Assembly (NCBI GenBank): GCA_031275325.1
Contig: JAISOX010000111.1
Span: forward strand, 1-39,170
Source of the DNA: Treponema sp.
GTDB lineage: Bacteria > Spirochaetota > Spirochaetia > Treponematales > Breznakiellaceae
DNA length: 39,170 nt
Reading direction: 5' to 3'
Shown here: positions 9,450 to 36,053 of the stretch, one piece after another
Numbering within the stretch: the first letter of the stretch is position 1
How the letters are laid out: each line of letters starts with the position of its first letter
Translations under genes and position numbers: made by a program
The notes under the pieces: model-generated
Told to the model about the DNA's origin: nothing
Seen by the model: only the letters and a program-made list of their open reading frames with translations
Databases searched by the model: none

Positions 9450-9534
9450 TTTTTTTTAAGCATGGCTTGTTTTTCCCCCATATGCTCTTTTGAGAATTTT
9501 TTTTAAGCATGGCTTGTTTTTCCCCCATATTCTC
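9450..9534. repeat. Direct duplication of about 48 bp
   Basis: A T-run followed by AAGCATGGCTTGTTTTTCCC and CCATAT occurs twice in direct orientation, starting near 9450 and near 9498. Each copy ends at a GAGAAT motif, which in the second copy becomes the first unit of the neighbouring 21-bp array. Confidence 0.8.
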
Positions 9535-9723
9535 AGTTGAGAATGGTCCGTTTTCAGTTGAGAATGGTCCGTTTTCAGTTGAGAATGGTCCGTTTTCAGT
9601 TGAGAATGGTCCATTTTCAGTTGAGAATGGTCCATTTTCAGTTGAGAATGGTCCATTTTCAGTTGAGAATGGTCCGTTTTCAGTTGAGAATGGACCATTC
9701 TCTTTTGAGAACGGTCCGTTTTT
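9535..9723. repeat. Tandem array of nine 21-bp units, ENGPFS-coding on both strands
   Basis: Nine units follow without gaps from 9535. Units 1-3 are identical, units 4-6 share one G-to-A change, unit 7 reverts, unit 8 has three further changes and unit 9 is the most diverged. Each unit is close to a reverse palindrome around GAATGGTCC. As a result the forward frame reads (V)ENGPFS and the reverse frame reads ENGPFS(T). In units 1-8 every change is synonymous in both frames. Open frames run through the array on both strands (forward 9509-9784, reverse 9867-9328), but neither has a convincing ribosome site. It fills most of the 549-base gap between mnmE and infA. Confidence 0.9.
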
Positions 9724-11282: not shown

Positions 11283-12143
11283 ATGATCATTAATCACAAC
11301 ATAAGCGCTATGTTTGCCGATAGGTCCCTTAAATCGACCCAGACAGCCCTTGAAAAGAACATTGAGAAATTGTCCAGCGGGTTTCGGATCAGCCGATCCG
11401 GGGATGATCCTTCGGGCCTTGCAGTTTCCGAAAAGCTGCGGAGTCAAATCCGGGGCTTGAATGTGGCCTCTGCCAATGCCCAGAACGGGGTTTCGTTTAT
11501 TCAAACTACCGAGGGGTATCTCCAGGAAACCCAGGATATTTTACAGCGGATCCGCGAGTTGGCGGTCCAGTCTTCCAACGGGATTTATACTGAAGAAGAC
11601 CGGACCTATATTCAGATCGAAGTATCAGCCCTGATCGACGAATTGGATCGGGTTGCTTCCCATGCCCAATTCAACGGGATGAACCTGCTCACCGGCCGGT
11701 TCGCCCGGCAAGGGGGTGAAAATGTGGTTACCGCTTCGCTGTGGCTTCACATTGGGGCTAACATGGATCAGCGGGAACAGGTGTTTATCAGCACCATGAC
11801 CGCCAAATCCTTAGGGATTCGGAATGTGGGAGACGATTCCTTGTTGAGCATTGCGGATCCGGATAGCGCCAACCGGGCTCTCGGAACCCTTGATGAAGCC
11901 CTCAGGCTGGTCAGTAAGCAGCGGGCAGATCTGGGAGCCTACCAGAACCGTTTAGAACAGGCCATCCGGGGCATTGATATAGGAGCGGAAAACCTGCAAG
12001 CCTCTGAATCCCGTATCCGGGACGCCAACATGGCGAGCGAAATGGTTTCCTTTACCAAGAATCAGATCATTAGCCAGGCTGGTACGGCTATGTTGGCTCA
12101 GGCTAATCAGCGCAGCCAGGGTATTCTTCAGTTGTTGCAGTAA
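11283..12143 (+). CDS. flaB: Flagellin FlaB, periplasmic flagellar core protein
   Basis: This 286-residue flagellin forms the core of the spirochaete periplasmic filament. The N-terminal D0/D1 segment ([20 protein letters not shown], then [20 protein letters not shown]) and the C-terminal segment ([20 protein letters not shown], ending QGILQLLQ) are highly typical. The central region is short and there is no D2/D3 outer domain, as expected for FlaB. There is no signal peptide, since it is exported by the flagellar type III system. ATG 11283 follows AAAGGAG, and a strong terminator follows the gene, so it is monocistronic. The several FlaB paralogues of treponemes cannot be told apart here. 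Confidence 0.97.
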
Positions 12144-12424: not shown

Positions 12425-13147
12425 ATGTTAAAAAAATGGGTATTAGCTATGGCGCTAATCAGTGCAGGTGGAACGGTTTTCGCGGGAACCTATGATGTGG
12501 TTAATCGTGAAGAAGCGGTGTTCATACTTGACGGCGTTGCGGATGAGCGGGTGTGGGATAGGGTGCCGGCTATCGGTAACTTTGTTCTGCCTTGGGAAGC
12601 AGATGTGGCTCCTGCAACGGTATTTAAGGCTTATCATGATGCAGATAACTTTTACTTCTCCTTTGTCGTTGAAGATGAGGATATCCTATCCGCAGAAGAC
12701 GTGGAGGATGAAGAAGGGGTTGACCGTTTAGATGCGGTGCACCTGTTTTTTGCTTCTCATCAAATAGACCGTCCCCTGGAGGGTGAACTTCCTCCTTACT
12801 ATGTGGTCTCCCTTGATGCACTGGGGCATGTGCATGATTACTCGGCGGTCTATTATCTTCGGGATCAGGATAATGACTGGGCATTCACCGACCAACAAGT
12901 AGCGGGCAGAATTTTTGATGGCCGCTATTCAGTCGAGGGAATGATCCCCCTGGAATCATTCCGGGAACTGGGCCTGCTCAATGAGGACCATGAGACCCTG
13001 CTTCTGGTAGGGCTTTTCCGTACTGATTGGAGCACTGACGGCGAAGAGCCCCGGTGGATATCATGGATTGACGATCTCGCATCGGTAACTGAAACCCCGG
13101 ATATACATCTGGCCGCATCCTTTGGCCGGTTTAGACTGGCTCCCTAA
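12425..13147 (+). CDS. Exported CBM9-like carbohydrate-binding protein
   Basis: This is a 240-residue exported protein with a single domain of the family-9 carbohydrate-binding type (CBM9/DOMON-like beta-sandwich). A signal peptide is evident (MLKKWVLAMALISAGGTVFA, cleavage near residue 20). The domain starts with the usual AVFILDGVADERVWDRVPAI, has the KAYHDADNFYFSFVVEDED strand pair, and ends DIHLAASFGRFRL. There is no attached catalytic domain, so it may be a solute or surface binder. It starts at ATG 12425, following GGAGG, and has its own downstream hairpin. Acidic residues are frequent (DEEGVDRLD), which could bind calcium; that is inference. Confidence 0.8.
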   Translation: MLKKWVLAMALISAGGTVFAGTYDVVNREEAVFILDGVADERVWDRVPAIGNFVLPWEADVAPATVFKAYHDADNFYFSFVVEDEDILSAEDVEDEEGVDRLDAVHLFFASHQIDRPLEGELPPYYVVSLDALGHVHDYSAVYYLRDQDNDWAFTDQQVAGRIFDGRYSVEGMIPLESFRELGLLNEDHETLLLVGLFRTDWSTDGEEPRWISWIDDLASVTETPDIHLAASFGRFRLAP

Positions 13148-13314: not shown

Positions 13315-14868
13315 ATGAATGCCCTGGCAGTATTATATGGGGGCAGCCTTACCGAGGCGGCCTATGAGCGGGTTTTTTCAGGAAAAAGCGCCCTTGCCCT
13401 TGCAGCGGAACGGGCGGCTGCGTTTCCGGATACCCGCAAGATTCTTCTATTGACCCAAACAACGGGGATCCGGCAAGCCGATGCGGTTCAAGGAATTGAG
13501 CTGATACAGGCTGCAGAATGGACTAAAAAACAAGTCCTGGATACCCTCGCCAGGGAATCAGGAGGGTTTGATCTTACCTATTTTGCCTGGGCGGATTGCC
13601 CTTTCTTGGATCCGGACCTGGCCAAGGCTATAGCGGAACGGCATCTCCAGTATGCCGCGGAATATTCTTATGCCGACGGCTGGCCCTACGGACTTTCTCC
13701 TGAGATCCTAGCGCCGGGTATAGCGGGGATTCTCTCAAAAATACTGGGAGATGCGGACGGCCCGGTAGCGCGGGATATGCTGTTTTCGGTTATACAAAAA
13801 GATATCAATACCTTTGATATTGAAACGGTCCTTTCCCCGGTGGATCTCCGCTGCCACCGCCTGAGCCTTACCGCAGATGCTAAGCGAAACCTCCTCCTTT
13901 TAACCCGTTTTGCGGAAGCAGGTTTTTCCAGGGCCCAGGATGCGGAAACCCTTATTGCCGAACAGCCTGAACTCCTGCGGACCCTTCCCAATTTCTTTAG
14001 TATACAGGTAGCCGGTCCCTGTCCTCAGCGCTGTACCCTCTGCCCGTATCCTCGATTCCATGGTTCAGGAGAGCTTACCCAAAGAACCGACTTCCTTGGA
14101 AGCGATCGTTTTGAGGAGCTTTTAACGCGTATCATCCCCTTTGCCGGGGATGGGGTGATCGATCTTTCCCTCTGGGGAGAACTCAGCCTTCATCCAGAAA
14201 AGATGAACCTTATTCGCGGGGTCCTCTCCCGGCCTGAACTATCCCTCGTTATCGAAAGCGCTGGTCTTGGCTGGAAAACCGATGAACTGGAGCAAATTGC
14301 AGCGGAAGCCCAAAAAGCCCTGCCCCGGAGTAATAGAATGGCGCCCCTCTCTTGGATAATTGCGCTGGATGCCCAGAATCCGGCACGGTACCGGGAAATT
14401 CGGGGCTCCGGTTATGCTGAGGCCCTGGCAAATGCCAAAACCTTGATCCGGTTGTTCCCCCAGGACGCCTATGTGCAAGCCGTCAGAGTCAAAGGGTTTG
14501 AAGATGATATTGAACAATTCTATCGGTCCTGGAAAGAAGCGGGGGCCCGTATCATTATTCAAAAATACGATCATTTTTGCGGGTCCCTCCCTGCATGGGG
14601 GGCTGCGGATCTCTCACCGGTAAAACGTCAGCCCTGTTGGCATCTCCTGCGGGATATGGCGATCCTGCTTGATGGAACCGTTCCCTGCTGTAGGGAAGAT
14701 CTAGCGGCTCTGACCGGGGGATCGGAAAAAGGGGTCTGGGGAAATGTTTTTTCGGATCCCCTGGAAACCATCTGGTCCCGGGGCGCAGCCCTCTACCGGG
14801 AACAGTGTATACCGGCTTATACGGGAATATGCGCGGGGTGTGATGAATACTATACCTACAACTTTTAA
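13315..14868 (+). CDS. Radical SAM/SPASM protein with N-terminal nucleotidyltransferase-like domain
   Basis: This 517-residue protein resembles the spirochaete-restricted 'spiro-SPASM' proteins. Residues 1-200 look like a degenerate GT-A/cytidylyltransferase domain (LAVLYGGSLTEAAYERVFSG, then the ADCPFLDPDLAKAI acidic motif). From about residue 236 the radical SAM cluster motif is CPQRCTLC, which is CxxxCxxC. The C-terminus is a SPASM domain with Cys residues around CWHLLRDMAILLDGTVPCCR and a final CIPAYTGICAGCDEYY, able to hold auxiliary Fe-S clusters. The substrate is unknown. It heads a tightly overlapping operon of sugar-nucleotide genes, so sugar or glycoconjugate modification is more likely than peptide modification. 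The ribosome site (GGTAAGG) is weak. Confidence 0.85.
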   Translation: MNALAVLYGGSLTEAAYERVFSGKSALALAAERAAAFPDTRKILLLTQTTGIRQADAVQGIELIQAAEWTKKQVLDTLARESGGFDLTYFAWADCPFLDPDLAKAIAERHLQYAAEYSYADGWPYGLSPEILAPGIAGILSKILGDADGPVARDMLFSVIQKDINTFDIETVLSPVDLRCHRLSLTADAKRNLLLLTRFAEAGFSRAQDAETLIAEQPELLRTLPNFFSIQVAGPCPQRCTLCPYPRFHGSGELTQRTDFLGSDRFEELLTRIIPFAGDGVIDLSLWGELSLHPEKMNLIRGVLSRPELSLVIESAGLGWKTDELEQIAAEAQKALPRSNRMAPLSWIIALDAQNPARYREIRGSGYAEALANAKTLIRLFPQDAYVQAVRVKGFEDDIEQFYRSWKEAGARIIIQKYDHFCGSLPAWGAADLSPVKRQPCWHLLRDMAILLDGTVPCCREDLAALTGGSEKGVWGNVFSDPLETIWSRGAALYREQCIPAYTGICAGCDEYYTYNF

Positions 14869-15964
14869 CGATACCCTGCCTTCATATACTGCTGTGGGGG
14901 GTACTGAACGGGGAGCTTCTACCGGGCTTTCCGCAGTGCTTCTAGGCAGAGGAGGAGGCCGCTATCCTCGGCGTACCCGTTTTCAGGAACTGGAAAAGAT
15001 TGGGTTTGATTATATCATCTCCATGGAAGGCCCCCAGGAACGGTACGATGTGGAAGAGCTCTCTGGGCTTTTTCCCCAAGTCCGTTTTATTTTATTAAAG
15101 GAAGCGGTAAGTATTGGTGAACAGATCAATCTAGCGGCGTCGGAACTCTCCAGTCCCCTCTTTTTTGTATTGCGGAATGATCTGCGGATCCTCCATAGCG
15201 GCGGAGCTTCCCGAATGGAGGAACGGCTTCGGCTGGGCAAGGAAGAATTGTACCGGGGGGAGGGGCAAAAAAGCCTGTATAAACGACTTTGTACGGTCCC
15301 TTTGATTCAAAATTCCCATTTTGAAACCCTGCCCACCCTCATCGCGCCGGCGATGTTCCGTGCCACGGTCAAACCCCTTTTCTTTACCCCGGTTAAAGAA
15401 GGGCAGTTCTCCCTTTACCCCTTTGATGGAGTCGGTATCTATGACCGGACCCGGTTTATCCGACTGGGGGGCTTTGACAGTACCTTAAAAAGTACCCATT
15501 GGCAGCTGATGGATTTTGGGTTCCGGGCCTATCTCTGGGGAGAACAGATCGGGGCTACCCAGCTGATCCGCCTTTCCTATGACGGAGAAACACCTCCTGA
15601 GGATAGTACTGCCGATGAAAGTTACCGGCGTTTTTATCTCAAGAATCTGGCTCCGGTTTTCCGAGGGGATTCTGCTGCGATTCCGCTTCGGTATTTCCCG
15701 CGGTATTTTTGGCGGAGCGGCAGGACCCTCTTGGCTGCATGGGATGATTTTTCCCAGGGACGCCAATGGGTAAAGACCAACCGTTACCGGTTCCGCAGCG
15801 ACGCCCGAGCCATAACCGAGCTTTGGGAGGATATGGGCGAACTATCAGAGGATCATACCCGGATAGAGGAAGGAAGAACGGAAAATCCAGGACTGGAAGC
15901 GCTCAAATTTGAACATCCGAAAAGTGAACCGGAAAGCACGGAAGGTTCAGGGTCTTTGGAATGA
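14843..15964 (+). CDS. GT-A-fold glycosyltransferase-like protein
   Basis: This 373-residue protein starts at ATG 14843, inside the last codons of the SPASM gene (26-base overlap), so the two are probably coupled. I do not recognise a named family. It looks like a family-2-type glycosyltransferase: an N-terminal alpha/beta part (FDYIISMEGPQERYDVEELS), then SSPLFFVLRNDLRIL, where the DxD-like metal site would sit, and later RLGGFDSTLKSTHWQLMDFG, which resembles the GGFDE...DLG acceptor-site motif. There are no transmembrane helices. The charged C-terminal tail (ESTEGSGSLE) looks disordered. It overlaps the next gene by four bases. Confidence is moderate for the fold and low for the substrate. 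Confidence 0.6.
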   Translation: MNTIPTTFNDTLPSYTAVGGTERGASTGLSAVLLGRGGGRYPRRTRFQELEKIGFDYIISMEGPQERYDVEELSGLFPQVRFILLKEAVSIGEQINLAASELSSPLFFVLRNDLRILHSGGASRMEERLRLGKEELYRGEGQKSLYKRLCTVPLIQNSHFETLPTLIAPAMFRATVKPLFFTPVKEGQFSLYPFDGVGIYDRTRFIRLGGFDSTLKSTHWQLMDFGFRAYLWGEQIGATQLIRLSYDGETPPEDSTADESYRRFYLKNLAPVFRGDSAAIPLRYFPRYFWRSGRTLLAAWDDFSQGRQWVKTNRYRFRSDARAITELWEDMGELSEDHTRIEEGRTENPGLEALKFEHPKSEPESTEGSGSLE

Positions 15965-16662
15965 TGACCGCGGTGATACTTCAGGCGCGGCTTGATTCGA
16001 CCCGCCTTCCTGGAAAATCCCTTCTGCCTCTGGGAGGGAAGCCGCTGATCCTGCTGGTCATGGAGGCCCTTAAAGGGGTATGGGGTGATCGGTATGTGCT
16101 TGCCTGCCCGGAGGACTGTGTTAGAGCCTTTGGCCCCTGGGCAGAACAAGCCGGTTTCGATCTGGTAGCAGGATCTAAGGAAGATGTGTTAAGCCGTTAT
16201 TGCGCAGCGGTGCGCCGCTTCGGAATAGACCGCCTTATCCGAGCCACAGGGGACAATCCCTTTGTGTTTGTAGATGCTGCGAATACCCTCAACCAGGAGG
16301 CCCTGAACCGTAAGGCTGATTATGCCGGTTATAGCGGACTGCCCTACGGTGCAGGAGTGGAATCGGTCGCTGCAGAAGCCCTGCTCAAGGCTGAACAGGA
16401 TGCTTCCTTCCAGGCTGAACGGGAACATGTGTGTCCCTATTTGTATACCCATCCTGACTTGTTCCGGCTCCACCGGCCCTTGGCGCCGCTGGTATGGCAG
16501 GCTCCCTCTTTGCGGATAAGCCTGGATACCCCGGAAGATTACCGGCGAGCCCAGGTCTTGTTCGAGGCTCTTGCAGGGTTTGGAGAGGAGCGTTTCCAGG
16601 GGGAGACCATCATCGCAGCATACCGCAGGAGTTGTAACCTTTTAGAAGGCGAACTGCCATGA
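15961..16662 (+). CDS. SpsF-like cytidylyltransferase
   Basis: This 233-residue enzyme of the CMP-sugar synthetase/SpsF family should activate an acidic or other sugar with CTP. The P-loop-like signature TAVILQARLDSTRLPGKSLL is characteristic, followed by LGGKPLILLVMEAL and RLIRATGDNPFVFVDAANTL, with the metal-binding acidic residues. The C-terminal half (YSGLPYGAGVESVAAEALLK, EREHVCPYLYTHPDLF) matches the spore-coat SpsF subgroup. It overlaps the preceding and following genes by four bases each. Together with the SpsG-like domain next door it suggests a pathway like nonulosonic-acid or pseudaminic-acid activation. The actual sugar is unknown. Confidence 0.85.
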   Translation: MMTAVILQARLDSTRLPGKSLLPLGGKPLILLVMEALKGVWGDRYVLACPEDCVRAFGPWAEQAGFDLVAGSKEDVLSRYCAAVRRFGIDRLIRATGDNPFVFVDAANTLNQEALNRKADYAGYSGLPYGAGVESVAAEALLKAEQDASFQAEREHVCPYLYTHPDLFRLHRPLAPLVWQAPSLRISLDTPEDYRRAQVLFEALAGFGEERFQGETIIAAYRRSCNLLEGELP

Positions 16663-18653
16663 TGCATGGCCCCCTCCTGGTAGTTTCCACCGTTGAAAAA
16701 GGCCGCGGGGGAGGGCACCTGGTCCGGTCCCTGGTTCTGGTCCGGTCCCTCCGTTCCCTCAAACAAGAGGCCTATCTTTACATCCCAGAGCTTGAATCCC
16801 AGGATGTCTTGGCGCATAGGTCCCTGGGGATGACGCAAGAGGCGGCGTTTGAAGCATCTTGGCTTATAGGGGATACTGAAACCATCAGGAAACGACACTG
16901 GGAATGTATTATCCTGGATCGTTTCAGAACCGCCCCTGAAGAATTCGCCCAATGGGCGGCCTTAGGTCCCCTGATCGGCATTGATGAAGGAGGACCGCAA
17001 CGGGATAACTTTGATTTTCTCATTGATCTGCTTCCTGGTCCTCCGGACCGGGTTCCTCCCAATATCCTCGCCCCAAGCCTCCTCCCGCTGCCGAAAAACC
17101 GTCGGCCTTCCTTTGATGTTCCCCGAAGGCAGGCATTGAAAATCCTGGTGAGTTTCGGCGCTGAAGATCCTGGGGGACTTACCCTTCCGGTATGTCTTGC
17201 CTTGAAGGCCCCAGGACAAACGGAGATTACCGCCCTATTCGGCGGGTTGCATAAGACCGACGTAAAGGAACAGCACAGGGCAGCCCTAGTGGCCGCAGGA
17301 ATCCAGGTTGTGGAGGGTATGACAGAACTCCGGGAGCAGCTTGCCTGCTATGATCTGGTGATTACCCATTTCGGCCTCACGGCCTTTGAAAGTCTTGCTG
17401 CCCGGGTGCCGGTCCTGCTCTTATCCCCCAGCGCCTATCATGAAAAACTGGCTGTACATACAGGATTTATGTCCGCGGGTATCGGGGAAAAGGGAGCGCA
17501 CCGTTTACGACGCATCCTCTATACCCAGGCAGTTCTTGATACGCAGCACCCCAAGAACCGGAAATCCCTTCGTCTCAATGATGAAGCTCTTACGTCTTTG
17601 AGGGATCGCTGCGAGCGGATCCGGGCACGGTATGGGCTTAATCCGCCAGAAGATGCAGATACTGCCCCTCAAGGGCTGGGTGATCTGGTGAACCGCTATA
17701 CCTTCCGGGTACCTGCAGCCTGTCCGGTCTGCGGTGGTACCATCCCTGCTCAGGATCCGGTCTGTGCCCGGTTTCCGGATCGGACCTACCGGCGGTGCCG
17801 GCGCTGTGGTATGGTGTACCTCCTCCGTTCCACGTTGCCTCCCGTGGAATATGAGGGGGATTATTTTTTTTCATTTTATAAACAGCAATACGGCAAAACC
17901 TACCTGGAAGATTTTCCGAATCTGATACAGTATGGAAAAAAACGGCTTCGTTACAGTAAGCAGATACTCTATCGATCCAAAAGAAACCGAGGGGAGGATC
18001 CTTCCAAGACCCCAGCCCGGCTCCTGGATATAGGTTGCGCCTATGGACCTTTCCTGGTTGCGGCTCGGGAAGAAGGGTTTTTGCCTTTTGGTATGGACCC
18101 CGCGGAAGATGCGGTCCGGTATGTGCGGGATGAACTGCACATTCCTGCATTCCGGGGTTTTTTCCCGGAAACCCCGGTGCCTGAAGCGGTAAGGGCTCCA
18201 GGGTTTGACCTCATCTCTCTGTGGTATGTGCTGGAACATTTTGAAAGACCTGGAGCCGTATTGACAGAGCTGTACCAGCTCCTCAAACCTGGCGGGGTAT
18301 TGGCCTTTTCCACCCCTTCTGGTTCTGGTATATCCGGCCGCAAGTCCTTCCAAGGTTTCCTGGAACAAAGTCCGCCGGATCATTGGACCCTTTGGCAGCC
18401 TTCCCGGACAGGGAGCATTCTCAAACGTTTTGGGTTTAAGCTCAAAAAGGTCGTTATTTCTGGACATCATCCTGAACGGTTTCCTTTAATAGGAAGGCTT
18501 TTTGGTGAAGTTTGGAAAAAAAACAGTATGGTATATGGTTTATGCTTATGGATAAGCCATATATTGCATCTTGGAGATACCTTCGAGGTGTATGCAGTCA
18601 AAAAACCGGCGGTCAAAGAAGGGGCCGTCGCGAAATCAGCAGGTGGGAGATGA
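16659..18653 (+). CDS. SpsG/PseG-like glycosyl hydrolase-transferase fused to SAM methyltransferase
   Basis: This is a 664-residue two-enzyme fusion. Residues about 1-345 form an SpsG/PseG-like GT-B fold (LLVVSTVEKGRGGGHLVRSL near the start, then CIILDRF, LIGIDEGGPQRDNFDF, LKILVSFGAEDPGGLTLPV, and YDLVITHFGLTAFESLAARV, a typical nucleotide-binding end). From about 355 a zinc-ribbon-like motif (CPVCGG, then CRRCGMVYL) begins a class I methyltransferase with LLDIGCAYGPFLVAAREEGF (SAM site) and DLISLWYVLEHFERPGAVLT. PseG cleaves UDP from a UDP-sugar in pseudaminate synthesis. The methyltransferase half resembles UbiG-like and sugar C-methyltransferases. The fusion suggests that the two act on the same sugar. 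It overlaps the previous gene by four bases; the next starts one base after its stop. Confidence 0.85.
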   Translation: MMHGPLLVVSTVEKGRGGGHLVRSLVLVRSLRSLKQEAYLYIPELESQDVLAHRSLGMTQEAAFEASWLIGDTETIRKRHWECIILDRFRTAPEEFAQWAALGPLIGIDEGGPQRDNFDFLIDLLPGPPDRVPPNILAPSLLPLPKNRRPSFDVPRRQALKILVSFGAEDPGGLTLPVCLALKAPGQTEITALFGGLHKTDVKEQHRAALVAAGIQVVEGMTELREQLACYDLVITHFGLTAFESLAARVPVLLLSPSAYHEKLAVHTGFMSAGIGEKGAHRLRRILYTQAVLDTQHPKNRKSLRLNDEALTSLRDRCERIRARYGLNPPEDADTAPQGLGDLVNRYTFRVPAACPVCGGTIPAQDPVCARFPDRTYRRCRRCGMVYLLRSTLPPVEYEGDYFFSFYKQQYGKTYLEDFPNLIQYGKKRLRYSKQILYRSKRNRGEDPSKTPARLLDIGCAYGPFLVAAREEGFLPFGMDPAEDAVRYVRDELHIPAFRGFFPETPVPEAVRAPGFDLISLWYVLEHFERPGAVLTELYQLLKPGGVLAFSTPSGSGISGRKSFQGFLEQSPPDHWTLWQPSRTGSILKRFGFKLKKVVISGHHPERFPLIGRLFGEVWKKNSMVYGLCLWISHILHLGDTFEVYAVKKPAVKEGAVAKSAGGR

Positions 18654-18654
18654 T

Positions 18655-20274
18655 ATGCAAGAACGATTAATGATCCTGGGGGCAGGGGTGATGCAGGGAC
18701 CTGCTATCAGAATTGCCAAGGCATTGGGGCTTGAAACCGTGGTGGTGGATGCGGATCCTCATGCTCCCTGCGTCTCCTTAGCAGATCGATTTGAGCGGAT
18801 TGATTTAAAAGACAAGGAAGGCATTGCAGCCTTGGGAACTTCCCTTAAAGTCCAGGGAGGATTGAATGGGATCATGACCGCAGGAACCGATTTTTCTGCC
18901 ACAGTCGCCTGGGTTGCAGCCCAATTAGGGCTTCCTGGAATCCCCTATGAGGCTGCCCTCAATGCCTCGGACAAGGAACGGATGCGCCGGTGCTTTGAAG
19001 CGGCAGGACTCCCTTCGCCTGCATTTGTGGTGGTGGAAGCGGTACCGGATCCGGAGTTTTCCCCTCCTTTTGGGTATCCTCTGGTGGTCAAGCCTGTAGA
19101 CAATATGGGCGCCCGGGGTTGCTGCAAGGTTGACCGCCCTGAAATGCTCGGTTCTGCGGTGGCCGATGCCCTGAGATTCTCCCGAACCAATCGGGTTATT
19201 TTGGAAGCATACATGGACGGGCCGGAATTTTCGGTAGACGCCTTGGTATACCAAGGGGAGATCCGTATCTACGGCTTAGCGGACCGGCATATCTTCTTCC
19301 CTCCGTATTTCATTGAAATGGGTCATACTATGCCCACCACCCTGAACGCCGCCATGACTGAATCCATCCTTGCGGTCTTTAGAGCCGGGATCAGAGCATT
19401 AGGTATCACCAATGGAGCCGCGAAAGGAGATATGAAACTCACTTCCCAGGGCCCTATGATAGGGGAAATTGCAGCCCGACTTTCCGGAGGGTACATGTCA
19501 GGTTGGACCTACCCCTACTCATCAGGGGTGGAAGTTACCCAGGGAGCCATCCAGATCGCTTTAGGGAGGCCTCCCAAAGGGCTTGAGCCGATCCGTCAGT
19601 GGACCAGCGCGGAGCGGGCGTTTATTTCCATACCTGGAAAGGTTCGGAGTATGCAAGGCATTGAAGAGGCCAAATCCCTTGCATACGTACGAGATCTGTT
19701 CCTCCGGATTGAGCCGGGAACCCGTGTCCAGTTTCCTGAAAACAACGTAAGCAAGTGCGGGAATATTATTAGCGCAGCTCCTACACGGAAAGCCGCGGTA
19801 AACGCAGCGGAACAGGCTGTTCGTGCGGTCTTGATCCGCCTTGAGGCGCCGGATACTGAAACCAGGCAATTCCTCGCTTCTGGTGCAAGGGACCAAGCAT
19901 TTCCCCCTGCGGCTTTTACCATTCCCGAATCCCTCGCTTCCCTCCTGGCCACTTTCCCGGAGCCGGAATATGAGCCGACAAGGATTAAGGAGTCCCTTGA
20001 AATGCCCCAAGTGGTGCTCCTTCGGTTCCAGCCCTTGATCGAATCAGATTTACGGGATTATACCGGGAGGACCCTGCAAGAAAGCCTTGAAGCGGTCCGG
20101 GCAATCACCGGGTTTCCCCTTCCCCTGTGGGAAGCCGGGGCATCTGTCCCGGCTAAGATCCGGGAACCAAGAACCCTGGTTCTGGGCCGCAGTTTTTGGG
20201 CAGCCCTTATCCGGGGAGGGTATCAGGGGGCGGCATATATGGTAGATACCCTGGTACCGTTCCATTCTTTTTGA
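18655..20274 (+). CDS. ATP-grasp ligase
   Basis: This 539-residue ATP-grasp enzyme joins a carboxylate to an amine or similar nucleophile using ATP. The pre-grasp Rossmann part is RLMILGAGVMQGPAIRIAKA, then LETVVVDADPHAPCVSLADR. The grasp part includes YPLVVKPVDNMGARGCCKVD (ATP-binding Lys and Gly-rich loop), RVILEAYMDGPEFSVDALVY (metal-binding acidic region) and IGEIAARLSGGYMSG. A C-terminal extension of about 150 residues is not recognised. ATG 18655 is one base after the previous stop, so this is the last gene of the five-gene operon. Substrate is unknown. By context it may attach an amino acid to the sugar made by its neighbours; that is inference. Confidence 0.85.
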   Translation: MQERLMILGAGVMQGPAIRIAKALGLETVVVDADPHAPCVSLADRFERIDLKDKEGIAALGTSLKVQGGLNGIMTAGTDFSATVAWVAAQLGLPGIPYEAALNASDKERMRRCFEAAGLPSPAFVVVEAVPDPEFSPPFGYPLVVKPVDNMGARGCCKVDRPEMLGSAVADALRFSRTNRVILEAYMDGPEFSVDALVYQGEIRIYGLADRHIFFPPYFIEMGHTMPTTLNAAMTESILAVFRAGIRALGITNGAAKGDMKLTSQGPMIGEIAARLSGGYMSGWTYPYSSGVEVTQGAIQIALGRPPKGLEPIRQWTSAERAFISIPGKVRSMQGIEEAKSLAYVRDLFLRIEPGTRVQFPENNVSKCGNIISAAPTRKAAVNAAEQAVRAVLIRLEAPDTETRQFLASGARDQAFPPAAFTIPESLASLLATFPEPEYEPTRIKESLEMPQVVLLRFQPLIESDLRDYTGRTLQESLEAVRAITGFPLPLWEAGASVPAKIREPRTLVLGRSFWAALIRGGYQGAAYMVDTLVPFHSF

Positions 20275-20487: not shown

Positions 20488-21555
20488 ATGCATAACCGGC
20501 GTTTCTTGATAGGTCTCTTGTTTTCCAACATGCTCTTTCTGTCCGCACAAATAGTGGGCTTTGGGGATGAGAAGGCCCTCACCTTAGATGAAACCCTCCA
20601 AAACCTCGGTTCCCCAGGAAATGCGGCCGCATTCCGCTGGGATCCCTTTTTCCAGGCCGGGATCTTTTCATGGGCAGATCAGTACGTATCTTTCCGGGTT
20701 GGGATGCCCGGCGAAACAGGTCTGGTTGTACTTAACGGCAAGGAAATACGCTCCCTGCCCTCCCCTTTTCTTGAACAAGGAACGCTGCAGTTTCCCCAAG
20801 CCTTTGTGAGCGCCCTCAGTAAGGCCCTGGAAGACGATCTTCCCCAGGAAGCGCCGGTCCAGTTTCGTATTGCCGCGATTATTGTGGATCCTGGTCATGG
20901 AGGTAAAGATACCGGAGCAGTGGGAAACCATACTATTGATGGAAAATCCTTGCGGGTGGCGGAAAAAGACATAGTCCTCAAGGTTTCCAAGGACCTCCAT
21001 AGCCGGCTTGCCCGGGGGTTTCCAGATAAACAGGTCTTATTAACCCGGGACCAGGATACCTTTATCAGTTTAGATGAGCGGGTAGCCATAGCCAATGGGA
21101 TTCCCCTGAAAGACAACGAAGCCACGGTATTCATTTCCATCCATGCTAATGCATCTTTCAATAAACATGTCAGGGGCTATGAGGTGTGGTACCTCAATCC
21201 CGAGTACCGGCGGACCGTCATCGACCAGTCAAAATACCAGGATGCCCAAGAGGTGGTTCCCATTCTTAATGCTATGCTTGAGGAGGAATTCACCTCTGAA
21301 AGTATCAGGATAGCTGAATCTATTATGAAACGGTTTGATGAAACCCTAGGCAGCTCTTTTCCTTCCCGGGGTATCAAGGCAGAGGAGTGGTTTGTAGTAC
21401 GGAATGTGCGGATGCCTTCGGTCTTGGTCGAGTTAGGCTTTCTGAGCAATGAGCGGGATGCCACGCTTTTGACCGATGAAACCTATTTGCAGCACTTTTC
21501 AGAAGCCTTATATAAGGGTATTATGGATTTTGTGGATGAGTTTGAAGGGTTGTAG
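20488..21555 (+). CDS. N-acetylmuramoyl-L-alanine amidase (Amidase_3)
   Basis: This 355-residue exported zinc amidase removes stem peptides from peptidoglycan. The signal peptide is MHNRRFLIGLLFSNMLFLSA (cleavage near residue 20). An N-terminal region of about 110 residues is unassigned. The catalytic domain (about 130-355) has IIVDPGHGGKDTGAVG (zinc His), TVFISIHANASF (second zinc His) and PSVLVELGFLSNERDA with the catalytic Glu. A long insertion (about 235-285) between the second His and the Glu motif is typical of many Amidase_3 members. A TTG at 20485 is possible, but ATG 20488 is preferred. The SD is weak. It is followed by a hairpin-rich gap and then a GerMN gene. Confidence 0.92.
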   Translation: MHNRRFLIGLLFSNMLFLSAQIVGFGDEKALTLDETLQNLGSPGNAAAFRWDPFFQAGIFSWADQYVSFRVGMPGETGLVVLNGKEIRSLPSPFLEQGTLQFPQAFVSALSKALEDDLPQEAPVQFRIAAIIVDPGHGGKDTGAVGNHTIDGKSLRVAEKDIVLKVSKDLHSRLARGFPDKQVLLTRDQDTFISLDERVAIANGIPLKDNEATVFISIHANASFNKHVRGYEVWYLNPEYRRTVIDQSKYQDAQEVVPILNAMLEEEFTSESIRIAESIMKRFDETLGSSFPSRGIKAEEWFVVRNVRMPSVLVELGFLSNERDATLLTDETYLQHFSEALYKGIMDFVDEFEGL

Positions 21556-21739: not shown

Positions 21740-22273
21740 ATGAAAAGAATGGGCATGGTAAGTAGTGGTACGAGAAACAGGACAAAAAAAGGCGGTTTTA
21801 GGGTAAAATCGTATATTCGGCGTTTGGTTTACCTGATCCTGCTGGGCATCTTCACCTTCATCCAATTCCGGCAAATGAGCCAGGTGAGACGGACCTTTAT
21901 ATTTTATACCTTGGGGGACGGAAAACCAGTGGTAGAAAACCGTATGCTTTCCCGATCCCCCACAGAAGAAATTGCCCTCAGACGCTATGTGGAAGAGATC
22001 CTCCTCGGACCGATTGTACCGGATTCCCTGCCCTTGTTTCCAAGAGAGACCCGGCTTCGTTCATTATTATACCGGGATGCGGTGGTATATATAGATCTTT
22101 CGGAAACCGCTGCCTTACCCCCTTTAGAAGCCCTGAAGAGGGATGTCTTTTGGGGTCTGGATACGCTTCAACAGGGAATCCAGCGGAATTTTCCTTCAGT
22201 ACAAGGGGTCAAGCTTTTTATCTACGGCCATGAGGTACCGGTCATGCAAACCGGTGAAGCAGGGGATCAATGA
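21740..22273 (+). CDS. GerMN-domain membrane-anchored protein
   Basis: This 177-residue protein has one N-terminal membrane helix (RLVYLILLGIFTFIQF, about residues 30-46), leaving the rest outside. The exported part matches the GerMN/sporulation-germination domain: RTFIFYTLGDGKPVVENRML, then EEIALRRYVEEILLGPIVPD, LRSLLYRDAVVYIDLSETAA and a closing VQGVKLFIYGHEV. In other bacteria GerMN proteins accompany wall amidases. Here it follows an Amidase_3 gene, which supports an envelope-remodelling role. ATG 21755 is an alternative start; both ribosome sites are poor. Confidence 0.8.
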   Translation: MKRMGMVSSGTRNRTKKGGFRVKSYIRRLVYLILLGIFTFIQFRQMSQVRRTFIFYTLGDGKPVVENRMLSRSPTEEIALRRYVEEILLGPIVPDSLPLFPRETRLRSLLYRDAVVYIDLSETAALPPLEALKRDVFWGLDTLQQGIQRNFPSVQGVKLFIYGHEVPVMQTGEAGDQ

Positions 22274-22436: not shown

Positions 22437-23498
22437 ATGAAACGTATCTTCATTCTTGTCGTCGTCACGTTGTTGGTGATGGGATCGGTGTTTGCTGAGG
22501 AGTCGGTGCTTATTGATTTCTCGAAATTAACGGCTGATATTGTTCCCGATCAAAATGACGTGCCCACTCAAAACCGTGCGACCTTGATGGACTTTACCAA
22601 TGAGGCCACTAGCAACTTCACCGCCCGGCAAAGGGTAGAGATGAAATCTTCTTTAGCTATAGAAAGATGGGATGTGGTATTTGCATCTTCTTCGCAGAAT
22701 GTTACTACCAAGCATCTCAGTTATACTAAAGAGGCCCCTTCTAAAGAATGGGAAAAGGTGATGGGTGTTCGTATCCACTTCCCAGTGGAGCCCTTTAACT
22801 CCTGGGCCATTGTGAAGCCTCCCTTTGACATTCCCGCGTTTGAACCTCCGGCAACCATTGATGACGATGGAAATATCGAACCTGCTGAAGGAGCATCCGG
22901 GGTTACGGGTCCTAGCCGCTTTGAAGGTGAGCCTGATGATGAAGGTAAACCTACCGGTGGTTTAGGGGTGGTCAAAAACGTAGGAACCATTAAGTCAATA
23001 GCAGTAAATGCCTATGGACTCAATTTTCCCCATGCCCTTTCGGTGATCCTGATTGATGACAAAGGGAACGAAAAGACCTTCTTCATGGGTTATCTTAACT
23101 TTGAAGGTTGGGGAGAACTCCGGTGGGAGAATCCTGCATACGTGCAGAATGTTCGGAATCGGGAATTACGGCTGTACCCCATCTATCCTGATTCAACGCC
23201 TTTTGTAAAGTTCGGCGGATTCCTCATTCAGCGGAATGCCTCTAGCCCCGGCGGAGATTTTATCGGTTATTTCAAGGATGTCAAACTCATCTACGATCAG
23301 GCGGTTCTTGATACTGAACGGGATATTGAGGATGAGGCGCTCTGGAATATTATCCAGGATCGGGAGACTGCACGGAAGACGAGAGAATTGCAGCAGCTTG
23401 GTCAAGCTCAAATTCAGCGGTATCTGGATAATCAGCGGCAGGCTACCGAAACTACCTTTACTCCTACTGAGGGAGCCGGTGGCGGCGAGGAAGAATAG
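22437..23498 (+). CDS. flaA: Flagellar filament outer-layer (sheath) protein FlaA
   Basis: This 353-residue FlaA sheath protein coats the FlaB core in the periplasm. The signal peptide is MKRIFILVVVTLLVMGSVFA (cleavage after AEE or FA). The mature part has the FlaA-type order: ESVLIDFSKLTADIVPDQND, MKSSLAIERWDVVFASSSQN, VMGVRIHFPVEPFNSWAIVK, VGTIKSIAVNAYGLNFPHAL, ENPAYVQNVRNREL, and FGGFLIQRNASSPGGDFIGY. A Gln/Glu-rich C-terminal tail (REL-QQLGQAQIQRY) and a Gly/Glu end follow. The gene has a strong promoter, AAAGGAG site and its own terminator, so it is monocistronic. Confidence 0.95.
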   Translation: MKRIFILVVVTLLVMGSVFAEESVLIDFSKLTADIVPDQNDVPTQNRATLMDFTNEATSNFTARQRVEMKSSLAIERWDVVFASSSQNVTTKHLSYTKEAPSKEWEKVMGVRIHFPVEPFNSWAIVKPPFDIPAFEPPATIDDDGNIEPAEGASGVTGPSRFEGEPDDEGKPTGGLGVVKNVGTIKSIAVNAYGLNFPHALSVILIDDKGNEKTFFMGYLNFEGWGELRWENPAYVQNVRNRELRLYPIYPDSTPFVKFGGFLIQRNASSPGGDFIGYFKDVKLIYDQAVLDTERDIEDEALWNIIQDRETARKTRELQQLGQAQIQRYLDNQRQATETTFTPTEGAGGGEEE

Positions 23499-35810: not shown

Positions 35811-36053
35811 ATGAATACCCCGCATTCAGGCGAACACGCCCCGTATTCAGGCAACCGCACCCTCTATTCAGGCAACTACACCCCGTATTCAGGCAACCGC
35901 ACCCCGTATTCAGGCGAACACGCCCCGCATTCAGGCAACTACACCCCGTATTCAGGCAACCGCACCCCGTATTCAGGCAACCGCACCCCGCGTTCAGGCA
36001 ACTACGCCCCGCGTTCAGGCAACTATATAACCGGAGGACTACCATGTCAGTAA
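35811..36053 (+). CDS. Short heptapeptide-repeat protein
   Basis: This 80-residue ORF starts at ATG 35811 with AAAGGAG seven bases upstream. It is almost entirely heptads of the form [N/E][R/Y/H][T/A]P[Y/H/R]SG: EHAPYSG, NRTLYSG, NYTPYSG, NRTPYSG and so on, nine full units plus partial ones. PxSG is nearly fixed and the first three positions and the residue before SG vary. No signal peptide or known fold. The last codons carry GGAGG, and the stop overlaps the start of the next ORF (ATG 36044), so the two are translationally coupled. Function is unknown. The 21-bp period matches the other arrays in the window. Confidence 0.55.
   Translation: MNTPHSGEHAPYSGNRTLYSGNYTPYSGNRTPYSGEHAPHSGNYTPYSGNRTPYSGNRTPRSGNYAPRSGNYITGGLPCQ
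35822..36025. repeat. Tandem array of 21-bp units within the heptapeptide ORF
   Basis: Roughly ten 21-base units spelling CCCCGTATTCAGGCAAC followed by four variable bases are arranged head to tail. Unit types (NRTP, NYTP, EHAP) are interleaved rather than grouped, as expected from unequal recombination or unit shuffling. Confidence 0.9.

Follow-up and report, generated by a model that had tools for sequence, protein, structure and literature searches.

A conserved spirochaete gene cluster as the probable late part of a nonulosonic acid pathway for flagellin O-glycosylation

The stretch of DNA analysed here (the window) comprises 39,170 nucleotides of a Treponema sp. genome (assembly GCA_031275325.1, contig JAISOX010000111.1) and contains a cluster of five genes, termed G1 to G5, downstream of the flagellin gene flaB. 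Three of them, G3, G4 and G5, together with G1 as a constant partner of undefined role, probably form the dedicated late part of a pathway to a pseudaminic-type nonulosonic acid (NulO), the product of which would be O-linked to the flagellin FlaB. This assignment, derived from comparative sequence analysis, builds on the observed gene content, the conservation of catalytic residues, the co-occurrence of genes, and a correlation with acceptor sites. T. denticola FlaB carries a glycan of 450.2 Da that is required for filament assembly and motility (PMC9481697), and the original prediction, a note made from the DNA letters, had rightly pointed to this unusual modification. The biosynthesis of the spirochaete flagellin glycan has been unclear, and the cluster now offers candidate genes for it, which are retained by almost every flagellated spirochaete, the syphilis bacterium included, and which have been lost by Borrelia. 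The components of the system in the window are as follows:

11283..12143, + strand: flaB, flagellin, probable acceptor, upstream of G1
13315..14868, + strand: G1, spiro-SPASM protein of 517 amino acids (aa; TIGR04321, 562.7 bits), with cytidylyltransferase-fold N-domain, radical-S-adenosylmethionine (SAM) barrel and SPASM/twitch C-terminus
14020..14043, + strand: radical-SAM CX3CX2C motif of G1 (C236, C240, C243), intact in the window
14635..14841, + strand: SPASM/twitch cysteines of G1 (C441, C459, C506, C509; CX12GX4C...CX2C)
14843..15964, + strand: G2, GT-A-fold protein of 373 aa, by AlphaFold2 (AF2) model and Z scores closest in fold to GT27 polypeptide GalNAc-transferases
15961..16662, + strand: G3, SpsF-like cytidylyltransferase (PF02348, 88.3 bits)
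16659..17648, + strand: G4 N-part, SpsG/PseG-like nucleoside diphosphate (NDP)-sugar hydrolase domain (TIGR03590, E 7e-8, under the cut-off)
17676..18653, + strand: G4 C-part, zinc-ribbon SAM methyltransferase of the Methyltransf_23 type (PF13489, 81.1 bits)
18655..20274, + strand: G5, ATP-grasp carboxylate-amine ligase of the L-amino-acid-ligase type (LAL_C2 62.7 bits, ATP-grasp_4 48.4 bits)

The G1 family, spiroSPASM, was found in 320 of 393 genomes of the phylum, in 291 of them over the family cut-off, and its co-occurrence with other genes was analysed in a chosen sample of 74 genomes, 48 of them spiroSPASM-positive and 26 negative. Some genomes are named here by species: we take G056 to be T. 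pallidum Nichols, G165 to be T. denticola ATCC 35405, G248 to be B. burgdorferi B31, and G311 and G212 to be T. azotonutricia and T. primitia, and families f25 and f29 are presumably Leptospira- and Brachyspira-type, respectively. All 48 positive genomes encode flagellin and 47 encode a full NeuB. The sole exception is the 66%-complete genome of the window itself, which gave weak NeuB matches only; its sibling genome G366 carries both NeuB and Maf. Among the 26 negatives, 15 lack flagellin, nine are Borreliaceae with flagellin and without NeuB, and two (G321, G317) have both. These two were considered as true operon-less flagellated spirochaetes and rejected, as both are assembly breaks with loci that reach contig ends: in L128 the contig stops just past G4, and in L192 the amidase gene that usually follows the cluster lies 313 bp from the end. 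For spiroSPASM versus flagellin plus NeuB, Fisher's test gave p 4e-16, a value that overstates independence, since the genomes are related. Stronger evidence is the contrast that is repeated inside families f4 and f9, where G1 is present in flagellated members and in none of the aflagellate genera. Maf (PF01973) occurs in three to five copies in every operon-positive genome tested and is absent from Borreliaceae and aflagellates, and G5 orthologs show the same distribution even where they lie apart from the cluster, which is the case in T. denticola and T. pallidum; in the aflagellates G149 and G363, the G5 search gave weak generic ATP-grasp matches only. G1, G3, G4 and G5 thus track flagellin, a NeuB/PseI-type synthase and Maf, with no clear exception among the 74 genomes, and this bears out the proposal of a methylated, N-acylated and activated acidic sugar for the filament.

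Could the sugar be destined for the cell envelope instead? A lipid- or polysaccharide-linked NulO glycan would be in line with the Bacillus relatives of SpsF and SpsG, which act on a spore-surface sugar, with the amidase gene that adjoins the operon, and with the expression of NulOs by Leptospira (PMC3438082). This alternative nevertheless appears quite improbable, because the aflagellates, some of which have NeuB and a cytidylyltransferase, lack G1, G5 and Maf. In particular, the aflagellate G372 has NeuB and the cytidylyltransferase without these three, and therefore the cluster tracks flagellin and not NulOs in general. The Borreliaceae argue in the same direction, as they are flagellated, yet without G1, G3, G4, G5, NeuB and Maf, and without the acceptor serines in FlaB.

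These acceptor serines have been localized in T. denticola FlaB to the motifs VEVSQL and DRIAS, and they are substituted in B. burgdorferi FlaB (PMC7431986). In the window, Ser115 (11625-11627) and Ser126 (11658-11660) of FlaB align with VEVSQL and DRIAS, and at Ser115 of L. biflexa FlaB1 an extra cryo-EM density has been read as glycan (PMC13144727). We compared 41 flagellins, among them that of the window. Nearly all those from operon-positive genomes have Ser at both positions; in one Brachyspira-type flagellin, which occurs in two genomes, Asn takes the place of Ser115. All nine Borreliaceae FlaB sequences (L193-L201) have Glu and Asp at the two acceptor positions, residues that may stand in for the charge of the acidic sugar. 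We know of no earlier link between this serine substitution and the loss of the operon, within a literature search that was not exhaustive. Having lost both the genes and the acceptor serines, the Borreliaceae can be regarded as a natural knock-out. The likely target of the sugar is FlaB; treponeme sheath proteins are reported as unglycosylated according to the title of a 1998 paper by Wyss (cited in PMC13144727). Altogether, the cluster is strongly tied to flagellin O-glycosylation, and its individual folds are ordinary.

In G3, G4 and G5, conservation of the catalytic residues is complete or nearly so. G3 clearly exceeds the cut-off of the CTP_transf_3 family (22.6 bits), its motifs QxR..S.R..K, RxTxDNP and EH are conserved in 38/38 sequences, and it is the only match of this family in T. 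pallidum and essentially so in T. denticola, which suggests that it is a CMP-nonulosonate synthetase. The curated models of PseF (TIGR03584, 13.1 bits, cut-off 205.7) and KdsB (TIGR00466, 30.7 bits, cut-off 155.2) are not reached. The N-part of G4 matches PseG with 32.3 bits (cut-off 153.55) and has a GxGHxxR motif that is conserved in 33 of 34 sequences, and the C-part, for which the cut-off is 27 bits, conserves the D457xGC motif and the cysteines C355, C358, C380 and C383. G5 exceeds the cut-offs of both ATP-grasp_4 (27 bits) and LAL_C2 (29.4 bits), and it is related to BL00235 (PDB 3vot; E 3.9e-26). The domain assignments of the original prediction therefore hold for G3, for the methyltransferase part of G4 and for G5, with the PseG-likeness of G4 staying below the cut-off and the GT-A fold of G2 being that of a model. 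The G5 proteins of Brachyspira- and Leptospira-type genomes carry, as a fusion, an FMN_dh domain of the type of FMN-dependent alpha-hydroxy-acid dehydrogenases (L132:8173-10341, L134:8416-10659), which would fit a hydroxy-acid substrate for G5 and is taken as a lead only. In the class Spirochaetia, G5 ends instead in about 135 aa that belong to no known family; the idea that this stretch is a remnant of FMN_dh was dropped, as hhalign gave a probability of 0.35%.

Each reaction, the sequence of the steps, the identity of the acyl substrate and the part played by G1 are proposals. PseB/PseC-like enzymes that are encoded elsewhere would generate an NDP-linked 4-amino sugar, and G5 would then use ATP to join a carboxylic acid to one of the amino groups of the sugar, either replacing PseH acetylation or acting beside it. 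The C-part of G4 would methylate the acyl chain or the sugar, and the N-part of G4 would remove the NDP. Condensation with phosphoenolpyruvate (PEP) by NeuB, which is again encoded elsewhere, and formation of the CMP-NulO by G3 would follow, and one of the three to five Maf proteins would finally transfer the sugar to serines and threonines of FlaB. The original prediction of a complete route was thus too far-reaching, as the PseB/PseC-like enzymes, NeuB and Maf are not part of the cluster. The T. denticola glycan reportedly (Kurniyati, 2017) consists of a monoacetyl pseudaminic-type residue and a 2-methoxy-4,5,6-trihydroxyhexanoyl amide. For such a structure we calculate a residue mass of 450.185 Da, compared to the reported 450.2 Da; its methyl group would come from G4 and its amide from G5. 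T. pallidum has one CTP_transf_3 protein (in the operon), one NeuB, G5, four Maf proteins, and one PseB-like and one good PseC-like gene that are adjacent, and PseH had no match in T. pallidum and several others. A complete but scattered NulO pathway of PseB-like, PseC-like, ATP-grasp, PseG-like, NeuB, cytidylyltransferase and four Maf proteins is thereby predicted for T. pallidum. As a side observation, the same gene pair follows NeuB in the T. denticola- and T. pallidum-type loci (L119:9660-12031, L122:10232-12675), encoding a small protein, which in T. denticola weakly matches DnaJ, and a larger one of about 650-680 aa for which Pfam gave no match.

Several points weigh against the assignment of G1, G3, G4 and G5 to a pseudaminic-type flagellin pathway. 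The identity of the sugar is not fixed, because G3 and G4 are under the curated cut-offs of PseF and PseG. A flagellin NulO is known from the literature for T. denticola, and for the organism of the window it is a prediction. In T. denticola and T. pallidum, G5 is distant from the other operon genes. Outside the class, neither G4 nor G2 was seen to adjoin G1, and the pathway may differ there. Finally, G1 has as yet no attributed reaction.

For G1, it is clear that the protein belongs to the TIGR04321 family (residues 4-517, cut-off 250 bits), the name of which carries no function; the literature covered here included no paper on spiro-SPASM. The SPASM domain was detected with 23.1 bits (PF13186, cut-off 21.5). 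The AF2 model (pLDDT 92) agrees with the originally noted nucleotidyltransferase-like N-terminus and SPASM architecture: by Foldseek, the N-part resembles the cytidylyltransferase 6oew (TM 0.71 on target) and the C-part resembles the radical-SAM and SPASM/twitch domains of SuiB, BtrN, SkfB and anSME. What did not hold is a central role for the radical chemistry that this architecture would imply. An essential radical-SAM step in the building of the glycan, such as a deoxygenation or a C-C bond formation, could be assumed from the intact CX3CX2C in the window and from the structural match to SPASM enzymes, but the motif is kept in only 44 of 81 orthologs and absent in 37, with no substitute cysteines there, and in a G1 tree calculated without the motif columns its state changed at least 11 times, with four changes forced by well-supported branches. 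The motif is missing from the orthologs of T. pallidum and of T. denticola, the glycan of which is known, so that classical radical-SAM chemistry by G1 is unlikely to be needed for the 450.2-Da glycan. A pathway built around radical-SAM chemistry was rejected because of the motif loss, and we regard such an essential role as improbable. In motif-bearing species, including that of the window, G1 could possibly add a lineage-specific modification. The auxiliary-site cysteines C441, C459 and C506 are present in 81/81 and C509 in 80/81 orthologs, and G1 thus represents a widespread family with repeated loss of the radical-SAM cluster and a retained auxiliary site. We tentatively put forward, as one joint idea that is somewhat less probable than its negation, that G1 is a pseudo-radical-SAM protein that acts via its cytidylyltransferase-fold domain and an auxiliary Fe-S/metal site after having discarded the radical cluster many times, and that the Borreliaceae, upon losing the acidic sugar, fixed Glu and Asp where the glycosylated serines had been.

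The position of the cluster between flaB and flaA, as initially described, is correct for the window. Further downstream neighbours are:

20488..21555, + strand: N-acetylmuramoyl-L-alanine amidase, class-wide downstream neighbour (PF01520, 162.6 bits; synteny)
21740..22273, + strand: small membrane-anchored protein between amidase and flaA, without Pfam match, GerM-like by resemblance only, with syntenic homologs
22437..23498, + strand: flaA, filament sheath protein (PF04620, 227.4 bits)

The five open reading frames span 13315-20274, with G4 as a whole at 16659-18653, and are indeed coupled as originally noted: G2 starts at an internal ATG (14843) that gives a 26-nt overlap with the end of G1, there are 4-nt overlaps at G2/G3 and G3/G4, and the G4/G5 gap is 1 nt. 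Promoters and terminators inside the operon were not more numerous than in shuffled sequences, and the base composition resembles the surroundings and does not indicate a recent import. An anti-phage role was considered and rejected, a generic methyltransferase match being its sole support. We mapped the proteins of the window onto 40 loci of up to 20 kb from about 20 families, and the order G1-G2-G3-G4-G5-amidase-(small protein)-flaA was found in most of them, through most families of the class, a recurrence beyond what chance would give. The linkage to flaA is therefore class-wide, while the upstream flaB was seen only in the same-genus sibling L067. In T. denticola-type (G165, G019, G340), T. 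pallidum-type (G056) and G276 loci, G1-G4 are contiguous, and G5, amidase and flaA do not adjoin. In several treponemes, G3 and G4 are fused to one polypeptide of about 820-880 aa (cytidylyltransferase-hydrolase-methyltransferase; e.g. L031:12343-14913), a fusion that speaks for their joint pathway. Beyond the class, G1 has G3 as its next gene in L047-L050 and no other cluster gene beside it in L032 and L033. Between flaB and G1, the window encodes at 12425-13147 a secreted CBM9-like protein (under the Pfam cut-off), for which L067, the sibling genome, gave the only match (88%). Tandem repeats of 21 bp form two arrays, at 9533-9722 and 35817-36025 (9 and 10 copies), the first of which translates as a repeated heptapeptide in several frames.

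What is the role of G2, which had been counted as part of a single five-gene route? G2 has no Pfam match, and its AF2 model (pLDDT 84) adopts a GT-A fold with GT27 polypeptide GalNAc-transferases as best structural matches (Z 18-20, with some 260-270 residues covered; about 15 and under for other GT-A enzymes), for example TgGalNAc-T3 (VIA Z 19.7, 271 residues, 11% identity). This nearness to protein O-GalNAc-transferases, the 26-nt G1/G2 overlap that is conserved in about 31 of 34 loci, and the continued pairing of G2 with G1 at the T. denticola and T. pallidum loci, which are remote from flaA, would agree with G2 as a transferase or as an enzyme adding a second sugar in the same glycan pathway. 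The DxH metal motif of GT27, however, is reduced to its first Asp (D113 in 29/33), with no His two residues on, and the Leptospira- and Brachyspira-type genomes tested gave no G2 match, though they have G1, G5 and Maf. Moreover, the profile search detected G2 in Borreliaceae (E ~1e-80) and in aflagellates of f9 (1e-90) and f12 (3e-39 and 1e-31), and a G2 homolog directly precedes an Amidase_3 gene in Borreliaceae (L183, L184; order G2-amidase-small protein-flaA-cheA) and aflagellates (L185-L187), with G1, G3, G4 and G5 absent; G5 and Maf are lacking in these organisms as described. A contig search with G2 gave matches only in close relatives, mostly Treponema metagenome-assembled genomes. Because G2 is kept before the amidase in Borreliaceae and aflagellates, it is tied to the amidase neighbourhood at least as much as to the sugar genes, which suggests that G2 and the amidase form an old unit in the class. 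Its function as a dedicated flagellin transferase is weakened by the same retention, and a single glycan pathway of all five genes is unlikely, if slightly less so than the alternatives weighed for the envelope and for G1. The best explanation would be that G2 serves the envelope in a function of its own that is linked to the amidase, without being specific to the sugar pathway, and shares the locus, and the original route of five genes would thereby shrink to G1, G3, G4 and G5.

The original prediction saw no obvious precedent for the chemistry, but parallels exist. In B. subtilis, spsG is needed for the synthesis of legionaminic acid and spsF for its transfer to the forespore (PMC7439481), and this role of spsF is consistent with CMP activation. 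The CMP-legionaminic acid pathway of that organism (SpsM/C/D/G/E/F; PMC7439481) likewise places an SpsF-like cytidylyltransferase and an SpsG-like hydrolase around a NeuB-type synthase and uses UDP-linked precursors; it differs in that its six enzymes include neither SPASM nor ATP-grasp proteins, that the acetyltransferase SpsD carries out the N-acylation, and that it serves the spore crust. A NulO bearing an O-methylated moiety depends, in S. oneidensis, on the sfm operon (PMC3765264), whose genes include one for a SAM-methyltransferase and one for an ATP-grasp enzyme. Like the spirochaete cluster, sfmABCDE combines the SAM-methyltransferase with an ATP-grasp_4 protein for a flagellin-linked NulO, and PseB/PseC homologs are encoded elsewhere, but this operon holds a PseI-like domain of its own and no SpsF, SpsG or SPASM protein, and the mass is 538 Da. 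The PseB-C-H-G-I-F plus Maf system of Campylobacter and Helicobacter shares the NDP-sugar hydrolase, the NeuB-type synthase, CMP activation, transfer by Maf, and the requirement for filaments, whereas the spirochaete G3 and G4 are far under the PseF and PseG cut-offs and a methyltransferase, an ATP-grasp protein and G1 are additional. Another counterpart is T. denticola, the 450.2-Da FlaB glycan of which is the probable product class of the operon in the window; the organism of the window differs from T. denticola by keeping the radical-SAM motif intact and G5 linked, so that its glycan may not be the same. The cluster is thus a variant of the known NulO-flagellin systems.

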